IMG/VR virus record: IMGVR_UViG_3300025122_000129
Location: 1-26,302 of that record
DNA length: 26,302 bases
DNA from: a virus
Reading direction: 5' to 3' (one strand)
Shown: in pieces, positions 5,574 to 18,960 of the stretch
How the letters are laid out: each line of letters opens with the position of its first letter
How positions within the stretch are numbered: the first letter of the stretch is position 1
The notes under the pieces: model-generated
What the model was told of the DNA's origin: nothing
Databases searched by the model: none
Seen by the model: the letters and a program-made list of their open reading frames with translations, nothing else
Program-made: the position numbers and the translations under genes

Positions 5574-6006
5574 GACCGAATTTTGCCACAGGGCGTTAAA
5601 ATAGGAAACACTATATATATGCTCAGAACAAAAAAAATAAAAAACTCACTCAGATCGCACTAAGGTATTTTCTTGATTAAGGTAGAGTAACTTTTTTGAC
5701 CTATAAGGTAACACCTTAGTTTGACCTATTTTGTTACCACTAAGTTATTGATTTATATATAAAAAACACCTAAAGTAACACCGGTAACCGAGGTAACGGC
5801 ATATTTTTCGCAAAATAAAAAAATTCACTCAGAACGTATATATAGTAAACAGTGTTCCTTGTTCCGTGACCCGAAAACCCCAATTCCTGAAACCTCTTTT
5901 AAATCAATGACTTACGTGCCCCTTGCGTCAGACCCCCATCTATGAGACAATATGGGAGCGGCTACCTCGGTCGCAAACGTGTTCTTTAACAAAATGGAGA
6001 AAGCTT
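5574..6006. promoter_or_regulatory. AT-rich divergent intergenic region with mirrored promoter-like elements
   Basis: No gene is seen in this 433-bp gap between the divergent terS and GHKL-zincin genes. The decamer TATATATAGT occurs outward-facing on both flanks: minus strand at 5619-5610 and plus strand at 5837-5846. Each is next to CTCAGAAC (5622-5629 and 5828-5835) and an A-rich tract, with a third related CTCAGATC at 5649-5656. The core between them holds TAAGGTA and GGTAAC repeats. A GGAG site at 5997-6000 serves the plus-strand start at 6007. The arrangement suggests a shared control region for both genes, an origin, or both. Individual -35/-10 pairs cannot be fixed. Confidence 0.6.
5661..5799. 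repeat. Iteron-like TAAGGTA / GGTAAC short repeats
   Basis: TAAGGTA occurs at 5661, 5678 and 5704. An inverted ACCTTA at 5713 makes AAGGT-AAC-ACCTT (5705-5717). A GTAAC core recurs at 5687, 5708, 5775, 5784 and 5793, and inverted as GTTACC at 5733. TTGACCTAT is repeated at 5696 and 5721. This density fits operator or replication-initiator binding sites. Confidence 0.6.
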
Positions 6007-7494
6007 ATGCCTTACAAGGCAAAGGGCCGTGCTGTGCCCAAAACAGTACAACGAGCTTGGTTCGATGTAGATCGGAAAGGCCTGTCTCAATTGATGGCAG
6101 ATCGGCCCCGGTCGTTCATTCTGGCCGAGTTGATCCAAAACGCTTGGGACCAAAAAGTGATCAACGTTACTGTTGAGATCCAGAAGCTACGTCGCGGCCT
6201 CGCGGTCGTTACCGTAGTCGACGACGATCCCGACGGTTGGTCCGACTTGACCCATGCCTACACTCTCTATGCGCCGTCAGCCAAAAAGGCCGATCCAACG
6301 CTGCGAGGGCGGTTCAATCTTGGTGAGAAGCTCGTTCTGTCCGTGGCCCGTGAGGCGCGGATCGTGACGGTGACCGGCGGTGTCGCGTTTGACGCCAAGG
6401 GTCGCCACAACCTCCGCAGCCGCCGGGAATCTGGCAGTCTGTTCGAGGCGACGTTACCGATGACCGACGTGGACATTCAGGAGTTTGAGGATTTTTTCCA
6501 CACCCTGATTGCTCCGCCCGACATCGAGACGACGCTCAAGGTGCAGGATCGGACTGTGACATTGAACTCACGGACCCCGGCCAGCACCCTTGAACTGACG
6601 CTGCCGACGGTCATTGCCGACGACGACGGCAACCTAAAGCGAAGCCGCCGTGCTACGACGGTGGAGCTTTACGAGCCGACGGCGGATGAGGTGCCTCACA
6701 TTTACGAACTCGGGATCCCGGTTGTCGAAACCGAAGATCGCTGGCACGTGAACGTGCAGCAAAAGGTGCCGTTGAACGCAGACCGTGACAATGTGACGCC
6801 CGCCTACTTGGCGGAACTCCGGGTCGCGGTGCTGAACGAAGCGGCGCACTTGCTCGACACCGAAGACTTTTCAGAGTCTTGGGTGACGGAAGCCTCATCG
6901 GATGAACGCTGCACGGACGCAGTGACGGAGCGGGTGATGACGGCGAGGTTTGGGGAGAAGCGGGTCGCTTACGATCCGTCCAACCCCGAAGCGAACCGGG
7001 TCGCTGCGGCAAACGGCTACACGGTGATAACCGGGGGCACTCTGACCGGGGGCCAATGGGGGAACGCCAAAGCGGCGTCCGCCATAACGGCCGCGGGGCA
7101 GAAGTTCCCGACATCGTACGACGCGTATTCTAATAATCCGAATGCGCCCGAAGCCGAAACCGTTGATCCGGCGGATTGGACGGCGGACCAACGCGACACG
7201 GTGGAGTTTTCCAAACGATTGCACGAGCTTTTGTTAGGTTGCTCAACCGGGGTTGTGTTGGTCAAAACCGGCAACGCTTTCGCGGCGGCGTACTCAAAGC
7301 GGAGCTTGCACCTGAACGTTAACGCTCTGGGAAAAACGTGGTTCCGGCGTGAAAACAGAAAAGTTCAGGTAGAGTTAATGCTCCATGAGTTCGCGCATTT
7401 CCATGAAAGCGACCACTTGTCCGAGAATTTTGCGGATACGGTGGGAAGTCTGGGAGCCAAGCTGGCATGGCACTTGGGTCTGGGAAAGATCTAG
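6007..7494 (+). CDS. GHKL-type ATPase fused to HExxH zincin-like C-terminus
   Basis: 495 residues from the ATG at 6007, which has GGAGAAAGCTT directly upstream; a longer TTG frame from 5923 lacks such a site. The N-terminal third shows the Bergerat fold motifs: N-box ELIQNAWD (41-48, E41 and N45), a G1-like VDDDPDGW (71-78) and a G2-like GRFNLGEKL (101-109). A middle region (about 190-290) includes YELGIPVVET and VPLNADRDNV, resembling the transducer domain of GHKL proteins. A variable region follows, then HEFAH (460-464) with H470, E473 and D477 nearby, a zinc-metallopeptidase-type motif. Similar ATP-binding proteins occur in phages, from memory, without assigned function. The gene stands alone against its neighbours' direction, with its own terminator, as a cargo gene would. 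An ATP-dependent remodelling or proteolytic anti-host role is inference. Confidence 0.85.
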   Translation: MPYKAKGRAVPKTVQRAWFDVDRKGLSQLMADRPRSFILAELIQNAWDQKVINVTVEIQKLRRGLAVVTVVDDDPDGWSDLTHAYTLYAPSAKKADPTLRGRFNLGEKLVLSVAREARIVTVTGGVAFDAKGRHNLRSRRESGSLFEATLPMTDVDIQEFEDFFHTLIAPPDIETTLKVQDRTVTLNSRTPASTLELTLPTVIADDDGNLKRSRRATTVELYEPTADEVPHIYELGIPVVETEDRWHVNVQQKVPLNADRDNVTPAYLAELRVAVLNEAAHLLDTEDFSESWVTEASSDERCTDAVTERVMTARFGEKRVAYDPSNPEANRVAAANGYTVITGGTLTGGQWGNAKAASAITAAGQKFPTSYDAYSNNPNAPEAETVDPADWTADQRDTVEFSKRLHELLLGCSTGVVLVKTGNAFAAAYSKRSLHLNVNALGKTWFRRENRKVQVELMLHEFAHFHESDHLSENFADTVGSLGAKLAWHLGLGKI

Positions 7495-7504
7495 TGCCTT
7501 TAAG

Positions 7505-7535
7505 CCCGGCCCTTCACGGGGCCGGGTTTTTTTTT
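7505..7535 (+). terminator. Rho-independent terminator of the GHKL-zincin gene
   Basis: The stem CCCGGCCC (7505-7512) pairs with GGGCCGGG (7519-7526), followed by nine T (7527-7535). It begins 10 bp after the stop codon. The T-run extends into the stop codon of the convergent 7535-7723 gene. No U-tract exists in the other direction. Confidence 0.95.
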
Positions 7536-7723
7536 CAAGGCAGATCGACTTCGTAGATCCGTGAGGGGCGGTTGTCGATCAACAAATTCCGCGCTAGGAG
7601 TTCGGCTTCTGGACGTGTGTACGTTGCGGTAAGATGCAGTTCTAAGCTATACAGGCCGCGCCACACGACGATAAATTTCTGCGGCTGTTCTGTGATTGCC
7701 TCGCTTATCTGTAATTTAGTCAT
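7535..7723 (-). CDS. Small hypothetical protein
   Basis: 62 residues from the ATG at 7723, starting MTKLQISEAITEQPQKFIVV. This start overlaps the stop of the 7720-7899 gene as ATGA, so translation is probably coupled; a GTG at 7747 in the same frame lacks a ribosome binding site. The sequence alternates hydrophobic and polar residues (FIVVWRGLYSLELHLTATY), suggesting beta strands, followed by a helix (PEAELLARNLLIDN). No known domain is recognised. Confidence 0.7.
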   Translation of the reverse strand: MTKLQISEAITEQPQKFIVVWRGLYSLELHLTATYTRPEAELLARNLLIDNRPSRIYEVDLP

Positions 7724-14438: not shown

Positions 14439-15977
14439 TTAAAACGGTGCGTCTTTATTTTCCCCGAAATCTGGGGTAGGCACTTCGACGGAGTGCTGTT
14501 CGTGGGCCGGGATAGACCACACGCGGACAGGTTTACCCCGGACTTTGAGGAGGATAGATTTTCCGTTTATGTCCCGTAAGCGTTGCGCCATCTTGTGCGG
14601 TTTGAAATCAAAGAACCGGTTCTTTCGCAGGAAGGCATCAAAATCCTTGAGTCGAAAATAAGTGATACCTTCTTCATCATCCGTGTAGGGGCGGCGTAAG
14701 AGTATTTCCTCCCGTTCACTGGCGCGTTGCTTGCTCGTGCACCACTCTTCGAGGAAATCATAAAACTGCCCCGCGATGCTGGCATCTTGACTCACTTCCA
14801 GTACGTTGCCCTCGGTTTGCGTCATGTCCGTCAACAAGTGGTTAAGGCGTCCTTCCCACACTTGTTTGGTTTGCGTACGTGGCATGAAATTCAATTGTTC
14901 GACGCAGGCTCGCTGGAAGGTTGGCTGGTTCATTAGACCTTCTGTGTCCATTTCCAGCGGCTGCCCGTTCACGTCTACAAACCAAACAGGAGGCTGGCTG
15001 TTATATTTTCGCAGGTTGGCGATAAGTGTTCCGGTGGCCGTGGCGTCTACGCCGTGCTTTCGGGTGCGGCATAAATCAGCATTGCAAAAAGCGTTTATGG
15101 GGCTGTCTTTGCACTTATAGGTGTAGTCCTTTTTTTGCAACTGCTTGGCGACAACGTTGACTTCCGAGAGCGGTAGCGGGGGCGTGAGGTAGTTAGTGTT
15201 GTAATTTAAAATCTCCGTTTCCCACGAGTCTGGGAAGGCTTTTCGCAGGAAAACGCCAACATTAAACAGGCCGTTGTTTCGGGATCCCTCGCTGATTTTT
15301 TGAGAACACAGGTGTTGAAGGCACGGAGGGCCGTCGGGAATGGGGGTACTGTCCGTGGCTTCAATGGTCAGGGACAGCAATTGCTCCGGTGTTTGAACAT
15401 ATTTTCCGTGCAGTTCGAAAAACTCAGAAAGCGTGGCAGCAGAGCCGTCATCGTGGATGGCGTAGCGCAGCCCCTCGGCGGCATCATAGTAAGGAATGTT
15501 AAGAAAATTCCCTACGTCCCCCCTGTCCAGATTCAGTTGAATTTGTTTAGGAAACACCTCACACGTGCCATAGCCCAGCCCTGCACCTAAATTCTGCAAA
15601 ACCTCTTGCATATCTTTGGCGGCAATCCAATCCGTGCAGAACAGAAAGCAATGTGCCCCGCCGGATTTGCTCCGACAAACAACAAGCGGTAATTTGGATT
15701 TGCGGATTTTATCAACAAGCGCTGTGTGGTCGAGCGGATATTCATCAACATCGATGCAACCCCAGCGGCATTCATTCGTTTCGTTTATGGGAATGATCCC
15801 AACAGAAACCCCTTCGCCGCTCAGGTGCTTTTCCCATAGAGCCGTGGTGCGTGGTTCGCGAACTAGGTTGGCTTTTCCTAGATTTTTCCCGTTCGCGTTT
15901 TTTCGGTTTACATTGTAGGTTCCGTACGCCTGTCTCAGGCCGTCGAAAATACCTGCAAATTTTCCTGCATCAGACAT
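14439..15977 (-). CDS. Archaeo-eukaryotic primase (AEP) superfamily protein
   Basis: 512 residues from the ATG at 15977, which follows AGGGGGGTTTC. The AEP catalytic motifs are visible: CIDVDEY (D76, D78), SKSGGAHCF (H109) and the third acidic/basic motif CEVFPKQ (E140, K144), followed by LDRGDVGNFLNIPYYD. This matches the primase type seen in phages and in TOTE-associated elements. A PriCT-like helical region follows (EGSRNNGLFNVGVFLRKA), then a Cys cluster YKCKDSP ... CNADLCRTRKHG that may bind zinc. The rest (about 330-512) is a helical C-terminal region with DDEEGITYFRLKDFDAFLRK resembling a winged-helix end; no helicase Walker motif is present. It should make primers for PolA. The gene begins just after a nested hairpin at 15987-16039. 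Confidence 0.85.
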   Translation of the reverse strand: MSDAGKFAGIFDGLRQAYGTYNVNRKNANGKNLGKANLVREPRTTALWEKHLSGEGVSVGIIPINETNECRWGCIDVDEYPLDHTALVDKIRKSKLPLVVCRSKSGGAHCFLFCTDWIAAKDMQEVLQNLGAGLGYGTCEVFPKQIQLNLDRGDVGNFLNIPYYDAAEGLRYAIHDDGSAATLSEFFELHGKYVQTPEQLLSLTIEATDSTPIPDGPPCLQHLCSQKISEGSRNNGLFNVGVFLRKAFPDSWETEILNYNTNYLTPPLPLSEVNVVAKQLQKKDYTYKCKDSPINAFCNADLCRTRKHGVDATATGTLIANLRKYNSQPPVWFVDVNGQPLEMDTEGLMNQPTFQRACVEQLNFMPRTQTKQVWEGRLNHLLTDMTQTEGNVLEVSQDASIAGQFYDFLEEWCTSKQRASEREEILLRRPYTDDEEGITYFRLKDFDAFLRKNRFFDFKPHKMAQRLRDINGKSILLKVRGKPVRVWSIPAHEQHSVEVPTPDFGENKDAPF

Positions 15978-15986
15978 GAAACCCCC

Positions 15987-16039
15987 CTGATCGAGACGGC
16001 GCGTCATGCGCCGTCATTATTTTTTTATTTTTCGATCAG
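15987..16039. promoter_or_regulatory. Nested inverted repeats in the SSB-primase gap; plus-strand terminator-like hairpin
   Basis: Inner stem GACGGCGC (15995-16002) and GCGCCGTC (16008-16015) has loop GTCAT and a T-rich tract after it at 16020-16032, so it reads as an intrinsic terminator on the plus strand, against the operon. An outer pair CTGATCGA (15987-15994) and TCGATCAG (16032-16039) encloses it. In the operon mRNA the outer helix ends just before the primase ribosome binding site. Confidence 0.6.
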
Positions 16040-17402: not shown

Positions 17403-17452
17403 ATCGACGCTTCTCCTGTTCCGTGGTTCGTGTTTGAAAGGGTGATTGGCCC

Positions 17453-17481
17453 TTTACGTTGCCGATAATGTCTTATATCAT
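17453..17481 (+). promoter_or_regulatory. Putative promoter of the SNF2-type helicase gene
   Basis: TTTACG (17453-17458) and TATCAT (17476-17481) are 17 bp apart, and the start ATG at 17503 follows an AAGGGGG site. It overlaps, back to back, the opposite promoter at 17465-17493. Confidence 0.45.
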
Positions 17482-17493
17482 TGCACAAGTCAA
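17465..17493 (-). promoter_or_regulatory. Putative promoter of the replication operon
   Basis: On the minus strand TTGACT (17493-17488) and CATTAT (17470-17465) have a 17-bp spacer. The leader runs about 55 bp to the ATG at 17402. It overlaps the plus-strand candidate, so firing of one may occlude the other. Confidence 0.55.
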
Positions 17494-17502
17494 GGGGGAA
17501 CT

Positions 17503-18960
17503 ATGTCCAATTACCAATGGAAAACGAAGCCGTACGACCACCAAGTTACGGCGTTAAAAAATTCTTGTTTTTCAGAGTATTACGCCCTGTATATGGAAAT
17601 GGGCACGGGCAAAAGCAAAGTTATTGTGGACACGATGGCGTTGCTGTTTGAAGCAGGACACATCGACACGGTTCTTATTTTGGCCCCGAAAGGCGTTTAC
17701 GACAACTGGATCCGCTTGGAGATCCCCCGGCACTTACCTGAGCGGATCCCGCACAATCTGGTGCGGTGGCAAAACAACCTCACGAAAAAATTCATTGCCG
17801 ATATGCAGGGCATTATCTATCCCGCAAAACGTAAAGCGGACACATTACACACTTTGGTGATGAACATAGAGGCGGTGAGTACCAAAAAAGGTGCCAGCAC
17901 TGTTTTGAAATACTTAAAAAGTAATCCCAAAAATTTATTGGTCGTGGATGAAAGCACGACGATCAAAAACCACAAAGCACTTCGAACAAAGAACATTATA
18001 AAGGCGGCGCAGTTTGCAAAGTACCGGCGCATTTTAACCGGTTCGCCCATTACAAAATCCCCGATGGATTTGTACAGTCAATGTGCGTTTTTAAGCCCCA
18101 AGGCTTTAGGCTTCAAAAGTTTTTATGCATTTAGAAATCGTTACGCACGGATGCAGCAACGTTATATTGGTCCCCGAAGCATTCAGGAAATTGTGGGTTA
18201 CCAACGGCTTGATGAACTGAATGAAAAGCTCAATCGGTTCTCGCTGAGAACACTTAAAAAAGATTGTTTAGATCTGCCCGAAAAAATTTACATGCGCCGA
18301 GACGTTCCTTTAACCGCCGAACAAGAACGCCTCTATCGACAGATGAAAAAGTTGGCGCTCGCGCAGTTCGATCAAGGAGAACTGGCAACCACTTCTTCTG
18401 TCTTGACACAAATCATGCGACTTCAACAAATCACCTGTGGGTTTTTGAAACCGGACAATGGTGAAATAGAAGAGATCAAAAACAACCGCCTAGATGAACT
18501 CATGGCGGTTGTCGAAGAGTTTCAGGGAAAGGCGATCATATGGGCCTCGTGGACGCACGACATAGGCCGGATTGTCCAAGCCCTGCGCCGTCGCTTCGGT
18601 GACGAAGCGGCGGCCTCCTACTTTGGCGAAACGGAACAGAAGAATCGACAGAAAATAGTCGAAAAGTTTCAGGATCCCGATTCAGAATTGCGGTTTTTTG
18701 TCGGCCAGCCGAGAACCGGGGGGTTTGGATTAACTCTCTCCGTGGCTCAGACGGTCATCTATTTCAGCAACAGTTATGATCTAGAGATCCGGCTCCAGTC
18801 GGAAGACCGCGCCCATAGAATAGGCCAAGAAAATAACGTGACCTATATAGATCTAGTTACTCCAGACACCATTGATGAAAAAATCCTGCAAGCACTGCGG
18901 GATAAAATCAATATCTCAAGTCAGGTGCTGGGAGAAAAGGCGCGGGAGTGGCTGATCTAG
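17503..18960 (+). CDS. SNF2/Rad54-type SF2 helicase (translocase)
   Basis: 485 residues from the ATG at 17503 (AAGGGGG upstream); a longer frame from 17446 would read through the promoter region. Motifs in order: Q-like YDHQ (11-14), I MGTGKSK (33-39), Ia LILAPKGVYDNW (58-69), II VVDEST (147-152, DEST in place of DEAH), III LTGSPI (178-183), IV IIWASW (345-350), V GGFGLTLS (406-413) and VI QSEDRAHRIGQ (432-442). The RAHRIGQ signature is diagnostic for the SNF2 family. SNF2 proteins translocate on dsDNA and remodel protein-DNA or branched structures; phage versions probably aid fork restart or strip host proteins. It is divergent from the replication operon and its stop overlaps that of the convergent virion gene. 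Confidence 0.95.
   Translation: MSNYQWKTKPYDHQVTALKNSCFSEYYALYMEMGTGKSKVIVDTMALLFEAGHIDTVLILAPKGVYDNWIRLEIPRHLPERIPHNLVRWQNNLTKKFIADMQGIIYPAKRKADTLHTLVMNIEAVSTKKGASTVLKYLKSNPKNLLVVDESTTIKNHKALRTKNIIKAAQFAKYRRILTGSPITKSPMDLYSQCAFLSPKALGFKSFYAFRNRYARMQQRYIGPRSIQEIVGYQRLDELNEKLNRFSLRTLKKDCLDLPEKIYMRRDVPLTAEQERLYRQMKKLALAQFDQGELATTSSVLTQIMRLQQITCGFLKPDNGEIEEIKNNRLDELMAVVEEFQGKAIIWASWTHDIGRIVQALRRRFGDEAAASYFGETEQKNRQKIVEKFQDPDSELRFFVGQPRTGGFGLTLSVAQTVIYFSNSYDLEIRLQSEDRAHRIGQENNVTYIDLVTPDTIDEKILQALRDKINISSQVLGEKAREWLI

Follow-up and report, generated by a model that had tools for sequence, protein, structure and literature searches.

We analysed a stretch of viral DNA of 26,302 bases (hereafter the window), an IMG/VR virus record that is classed as linear and is perhaps a fragment. 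It encodes a replication module (family A DNA polymerase, UvrD-type helicase, TOTE-type primase and SNF2 helicase), a small terminase subunit, and two proteins that resemble those of cyanophage Pam3; the replication region has no nucleotide match in 50,697 phage GenBank records, and hence no close known phage among them. Genes resembling those for Pam3 gp33 and gp34 adjoin both the TOTE-type archaeo-eukaryotic primase gene (14439-16007, - strand) and the SNF2 helicase gene (17446-18960, + strand). The subject of this analysis is a single gene on the + strand (6007..7494, stop included), with the polymerase side of the window on one flank and the terminase side on the other; it encodes a protein of 495 amino acids (P0001). 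A Shine-Dalgarno-like GGAG (5996..5999) stands 7 nt ahead of its ATG at 6007, and this choice of start is supported by close relatives, which share the beginning MPYKAKG and diverge upstream of it. Downstream there is an intrinsic terminator (7502..7537, + strand) with a 12-bp stem (7502-7529) and then a T run, as expected from an earlier note on this DNA, which had described a strong terminator here. That note had also called the upstream region repeat-rich: the divergent intergenic region between the small terminase gene (terS) and the focal gene (5574..6006) does contain a 25-nt direct repeat in two imperfect copies (5695-5744), in an AT-rich spacer, but the term is only modestly apt. Its description of the gene as transcribed against its neighbours applies to most of them, which are on the - strand, but not to all. 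No sigma-70 promoter match above chance was found upstream of the gene. The spacer also holds an AAGGT-AAC-ACCTT dyad and may be an operator region.

The N-terminal part of the encoded protein is almost certainly a GHKL ATPase. Its ATP-binding domain (residues 18-165, 6058..6501) carries, where the earlier note had placed them, the N-box ELIQNAWD (residues 41-48, 6127..6150), the G1 box DDPDG (residues 73-77, 6223..6237) and the G2 box or lid RGRFNLGEK (residues 100-108, 6304..6330). In an alignment of 120 homologous proteins that remained after removal of duplicates, E41, N45, D48, G77, G101, G106 and K108 are invariant (120/120), as are Q252 and R260 further downstream; N45 and the G2 glycines, to which the earlier note had drawn particular attention, are thus never lost. 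D73 is kept in 95 of the 120 homologues and is replaced by Asn in 18. The HATPase_c_3 model matches the focal protein with an E value of 2.6e-4 in a single-sequence search, which is below the Pfam cut-off, and is matched by 75 of 88 family members. An AlphaFold model of the whole protein (pLDDT 92, with 88 homologues in the input) was compared with solved structures by Foldseek: Hsp90/TRAP1 gave the best match (E about 1e-12), followed by MutL, MORC and GyrB, with E values for these four groups ranging from 1e-6 to 1e-12. Strands and a helix are predicted downstream of the ATPase domain, and this secondary structure, together with Foldseek matches to proteins that combine GHKL and S5 domains, points to an S5-like transducer domain (residues 166-284, 6502..6858). 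Within it, the switch loop QQKVPLNADRD (residues 251-261, 6757..6789) contains the invariant Q252 and R260 and a basic residue, Lys or Arg, at position 253; this loop resembles PLNxSRE of Hsp90 (HtpG 331-337) and QTK of GyrB, and by analogy with Hsp90 its Arg may touch ATP. The model then predicts a small α/β domain (residues 285-385, 6859..7161), a possible counterpart of the Hsp90 middle-domain lobe.

The C-terminal tail (residues 388-495, 7168..7491) very probably has a minimal zincin fold, to judge from the AlphaFold model (pLDDT 97.7 for this segment alone, from 89 rows), Foldseek and a profile of the tail. The HEFAH to which the earlier note had pointed is located at 460-464 and forms part of a predicted metal site, HExxHxxxxxH (H460, E461, H464 and H470; 7384..7416). 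The columns of this site were counted over 118 proteins: H460 is kept in 115, and E461, H464 and H470 in 117 each. Because of this conservation the motif cannot be a chance occurrence, for which the expectation by composition is 0.02 per protein of 495 residues. Three further residues had been proposed to contribute; H470 is upheld as the candidate third ligand, but E473 (Glu in 37/120) and D477 (Asp in 44/120) are not conserved. In a tail-only alignment of 89 rows, with a mean column identity of 29%, four columns and no others are without variation (H, E, H and H); it excludes two homologues with degenerate sites, as well as rows in which the tail is lost, truncated or frame-shifted. In those two homologues (L008:8001-9503 and L127:5400-6740), HExxH is degenerate and all GHKL motifs are intact. 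We also noted a short ORF (L228:1336-1761) that consists of the zincin part only, from a Planctomycetota bin in which a different contig carries the gene at full length.

Matches between the tail and known structures are weak by Foldseek (jannalysin, selecase, PprI, SPRTN and Wss1; probability 0.75-1.0, E 4e-3 to 0.3, the best E against the PDB being 3.7e-3). The tail profile finds myroilysin by sequence (E 8e-4), and also proabylysin and Wss1, in alignments that register on HExxH and, for Wss1, on the next His too. When the focal protein was searched alone, there was no sequence match in the PDB, so that profiles were needed, and none to a Pfam peptidase, including the WLM, YgjP-like and SprT-like models. 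The WLM model is weakly matched by 7 of 88 family members; none of these three models is matched above cut-off, the best E values, from single members, being 0.005, 0.004 and 0.07, respectively. Bearing in mind the weak Foldseek E values of a tail of 108 residues, the zincin assignment draws on motif conservation, fold match and profile matches combined. The proposal that GHKL and zincin domains are fused in one 495-residue protein has therefore withstood both of the challenges that the earlier note had set it: HExxH is conserved among homologues, and the predicted C-terminal model is zincin-like.

Seven close viral relatives were found first; a profile search yielded 122 IMG/VR viral stretches, of which 80 were kept. 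Homologues are also present on 44 bacterial and archaeal contigs and six plasmids, and just one of 50,697 phage GenBank records carries the family, that of a metagenomic 485-kb phage. Uncultured phages commonly carry the family, and fourteen loci are on contigs of 200-485 kb, whereas plasmids and cells seldom do (3/386 cyanobacterial and 3/392 Planctomycetota-sample genomes, with the centre genomes counted in). None of Pfam, NCBIfam and PHROG has a model specific to it: the focal protein has no NCBIfam match above cut-off and no significant PHROG. One main branch of the tree is rich in phages and plasmids, with 72 viral, 21 genome and 3 plasmid rows intermixed (15 changes between viral and non-viral labels, by a quick method); the other is cellular, mainly cyanobacterial and actinobacterial. 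Nearly every member of either branch has the order GHKL-then-zincin. We found no description in the open-access literature of GHKL paired with HExxH, a zincin, WLM or a metallopeptidase.

The earlier note had inferred from its placement that the gene is cargo, and comparison with related phages agrees. There are 26 contigs of the window's phage group with the polymerase gene polA followed by terS, and the focal gene is present in six of them. These six carriers have a terS at least 91% identical to that of the window, and the other 20, more distant, contigs are without the focal gene. Since other genes otherwise occupy the slot, the focal gene behaves as lineage-specific accessory cargo. One such alternative slot (L165:5165-7719) encodes a protein resembling class-3 lipases (E 6e-8 against a solved lipase), and also a protein with a YCGPAVLSFLTG motif that matched no solved structure. 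A survey of homologue neighbourhoods, as the earlier note had suggested, uncovered no dedicated partner gene for the phage copies: the commonest neighbour clusters (serine recombinases, DUF932 and other GHKL genes) each occur in a minority of loci, and an obligate operon partner was therefore rejected.

When these neighbourhoods were clustered, it emerged that large phages carry two more GHKL genes, both divergent, next to members of the focal family. One of them (cluster 7) has a match to PHROG 6077 (E 3e-64 for the member on contig L086), a group that includes gene 173 of E. coli phage 4MG and in which some members are annotated 'RIIA lysis inhibitor' or 'histidine kinase'. Its zincin-tailed branch aligns with the focal family over the full length, HExxH to HExxH (hhalign probability 96, E 3.6e-9), and its tail reads HExxHxxGxDGxxxH, or nearly so, in 14 of 15 IMG/VR members. 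The homology is seen in profile-profile comparison only, and the focal protein itself was rejected as a member of PHROG 6077 (E 0.12 over 60 residues). Cluster 7 genes lie 0.4-5 kb from a focal-family gene on large phage contigs (+ strand: L086:7067-8383, L085:6504-7883 and L115:3834-5141; - strand: L084:2586-3947) and on a contig of a Phycisphaerae metagenome-assembled genome (L029:6017-7357, - strand). Both families occur on one contig in seven cases (148-435 kb), always 0.6-16 kb apart and in five cases at most 5.1 kb apart, a closeness that is partly selected because the cluster 7 seeds were taken from within 6 kb; the later search for this cluster had no distance restriction. In cultured phages, 110 records match cluster 7, often with tail-less proteins that end at 357-398 residues: five of six sampled matches to PHROG 6077 stop at 357-382 residues and have no zincin (4MG gene 173 and its relatives in Lucjan, Pluto, Klebsiella phi1 and ABPH49), and the relative in Moorella phage MTATph1 retains HETLH.

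The second GHKL gene (cluster 5) is PHROG 8203, of the type of Pseudomonas phage YuA gp29 (L237:1998-3176; others are L128:7442-8947, L076:7241-8680 and L232:2492-3685). Its proteins share with the focal family GHKL-like motifs, a small α/β region and a zincin-like C-terminus, but the G2 box precedes the N-box (GQFGSGNK ahead of LREFVSNAID) and a conserved EExxH replaces HExxH in the tail; to judge from this motif order, they are apparently circularly permuted GHKL ATPases. Together with PHROG 6077 and PHROG 8203, the focal family falls within a broader superfamily of phage GHKL proteins, of which it forms one branch; in part of this superfamily the zincin tail has been lost or has degenerated. 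The ATPase would seem able to function without the tail, because two homologues have lost the metal site and most sampled cultured relatives in PHROG 6077 are tail-less. These relatives lead us to regard the ATPase as the older or a separable function, and the tail as an effector.

The Hsp90 family (TRAP1, HtpG) provides the best PDB fold matches and a similar switch loop (PLNxxR(D/E) here, PLNVSRE in HtpG), but the focal protein differs in ending with a putative protease tail; we know of no Hsp90 that has one, and full-length sequence homology to Hsp90 (HtpG) was not detectable. The zincin of about 108 residues is similar in its HExxHx5H, predicted fold and profile to the WLM/SprT-like proteases Wss1 and SPRTN and to the minigluzincins jannalysin, selecase and proabylysin, although this similarity is near the detection limit. 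In contrast to all of these, it is fused to a GHKL ATPase, and unlike Wss1 and SPRTN the focal protein has no recognised DNA-binding part and none for SUMO or ubiquitin binding. Membership of a WLM or SprT Pfam family was rejected, the profile matches being below cut-off. MORC and paraMORC proteins also combine GHKL and S5 domains, in some cases with C-terminal effector domains such as a nuclease or TIR (PMC2292703), whereas the putative effector here is a zincin, and there is no restriction-modification or helicase operon. The MORC S5 hallmark is GhXhhpXXRhl (PMC2292703); the focal loop QKVPLNADRDNV lacks the Gly eight residues before the Arg and has Asp after it, and we do not class the protein as a MORC. 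By analogy, its architecture fits the paraMORC pattern of GHKL plus effector, here a predicted peptidase (PMC2292703).

T4 RIIA and RIIA-like proteins likewise have an N-terminal GHKL domain and a variable C-terminus (PMC7824862), and RIIA proteins recur among matches of the focal protein in BFVD, a collection of predicted viral structures. According to a review of jumbo phages, RIIA orthologues are GHKL proteins whose C-terminal domains vary greatly and which belong to poorly understood counter-defence systems (PMC7824862); the T4 RIIA record is annotated as a protector from prophage-induced early lysis. The sequence relation to T4 RIIA is, however, weak and confined to the GHKL part. Membership of the T4 RIIA family was rejected: the focal protein matches no RIIA PHROG at E<=1, whereas T4 RIIA itself matches six RIIA-named families. 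As regards the pairing of RIIA with RIIB, the focal gene is the single + strand gene at its locus, and none of three recurrent neighbour clusters tested resembles T4 RIIB. On the predicted structures, the link to RIIA is structural only.

Our best reading, to which we give an even chance as a whole, agrees with the earlier note's inference of an ATP-gated protease: the protein would be an ATP-gated metallopeptidase whose target is a protein of the host or of a defence system, and its gene an accessory one for host takeover or counter-defence. The GHKL ATPase and transducer would close as a dimeric clamp upon ATP, as in Hsp90, MutL and GyrB; the minimal zincin (HExxHx5H) would cut a protein that the clamp holds or presents; and phages would carry the fusion to these ends in the manner of the RIIA group of GHKL proteins. 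The predicted folds and active-site residues of both domains are well supported, by modelling and conservation. We infer dimerisation and ATP-dependent closure by analogy with other GHKL proteins, and infer too the coupling of the predicted proteolysis to ATP and a host or defence protein as the target. Peptidase activity we consider probable; that ATP gates it seems to us slightly better than an even bet, and a role in counter-defence or host takeover falls a little short of one. In favour of an ATP-gated peptidase we count the predicted structures, the retention by 120 divergent homologues of the residues for catalysis in the two domains, and the order of the fusion, kept in both tree branches and in a second family as would be expected if the domains work together; we also count the accessory status (6/26) without a dedicated phage partner gene, the proximity of the paralogue families on seven contigs, and the frequency of RIIA as a structural match. 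Against it we count the loss of the metal site in two homologues, the tail-less relatives in PHROG 6077, the weak Foldseek E values of the tail, and the purely structural nature of the RIIA link, with no RIIA PHROG matched by the focal protein.

As far as we know, the energy-dependent proteolysis of bacteria and phages is attributed to AAA+ machines; if our reading is true, a GHKL clamp with its own conserved zincin would be a different design. Relatives occur in more than 100 viruses, many of them with very large genomes, and this suggests that an ATP-controlled protease used in infection has gone unrecognised. More tentatively, there may be a class of ATP-dependent proteases powered or gated by an Hsp90/MutL-type GHKL clamp, not built on AAA+, that is widespread in huge phages, with divergent paralogue pairs from neighbouring genes possibly forming one complex. 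Residues E41, R260 and E461 offer a testable biochemical handle on RIIA-like phage GHKL proteins.

Two other readings we consider improbable. The protein might act at replication forks or on DNA-protein crosslinks, its GHKL clamp sitting on phage DNA (as in MutL or MORC) and its SPRTN/Wss1-like tail degrading proteins trapped on the genome as it replicates. The tail does resemble SPRTN and Wss1, some members match WLM (7/88, best E 0.005), and replication genes (PolA, UvrD and primase) adjoin the focal gene in the window; however, the gene is missing from most of the related phages that share these replication genes, the protein has no recognised DNA-binding domain, and neighbours at other loci are mixed. 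The second holds that this is a RIIA/Hsp90-like ATPase whose tail is a metal-bound docking or structural module and not a protease. The tail-less PHROG 6077 relatives, the pair of homologues in which the tail has degenerated beside an intact ATPase, and the EExxH of sampled PHROG 8203 relatives would all suit it, but a purely structural metal site would call for the His residues and not for the catalytic Glu, which 117 of 118 homologues retain in HExxH.

There is a similarly small probability that the protein is an effector of defence or exclusion, toxic once triggered, that aborts infection by a competing phage, the cellular and plasmid members then being host defence. The best PADLOC match is negligible (E 0.07), and members are mostly in phages and largely without a conserved partner; what speaks for this reading comes from particular loci. 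Genes annotated as SIR2-HerA anti-phage genes are located about 4 kb from the copy on a Rhodovastum plasmid, and on a Cyanobium contig (L055:8341-14026) the GHKL-zincin gene is directly followed by a TIR-TPR gene. On Picosynechococcus plasmids, genes for a diadenylate cyclase, the GHKL-zincin protein and a CHAT protease stand in a row (L013:7424-13895, L014:7392-12669 and L015:7423-12386). A diadenylate cyclase is found beside the Picosynechococcus copies only, and a general partnership with diadenylate cyclase and CHAT was rejected on that account; within these plasmids, the three genes have the look of a cassette for signalling or defence.
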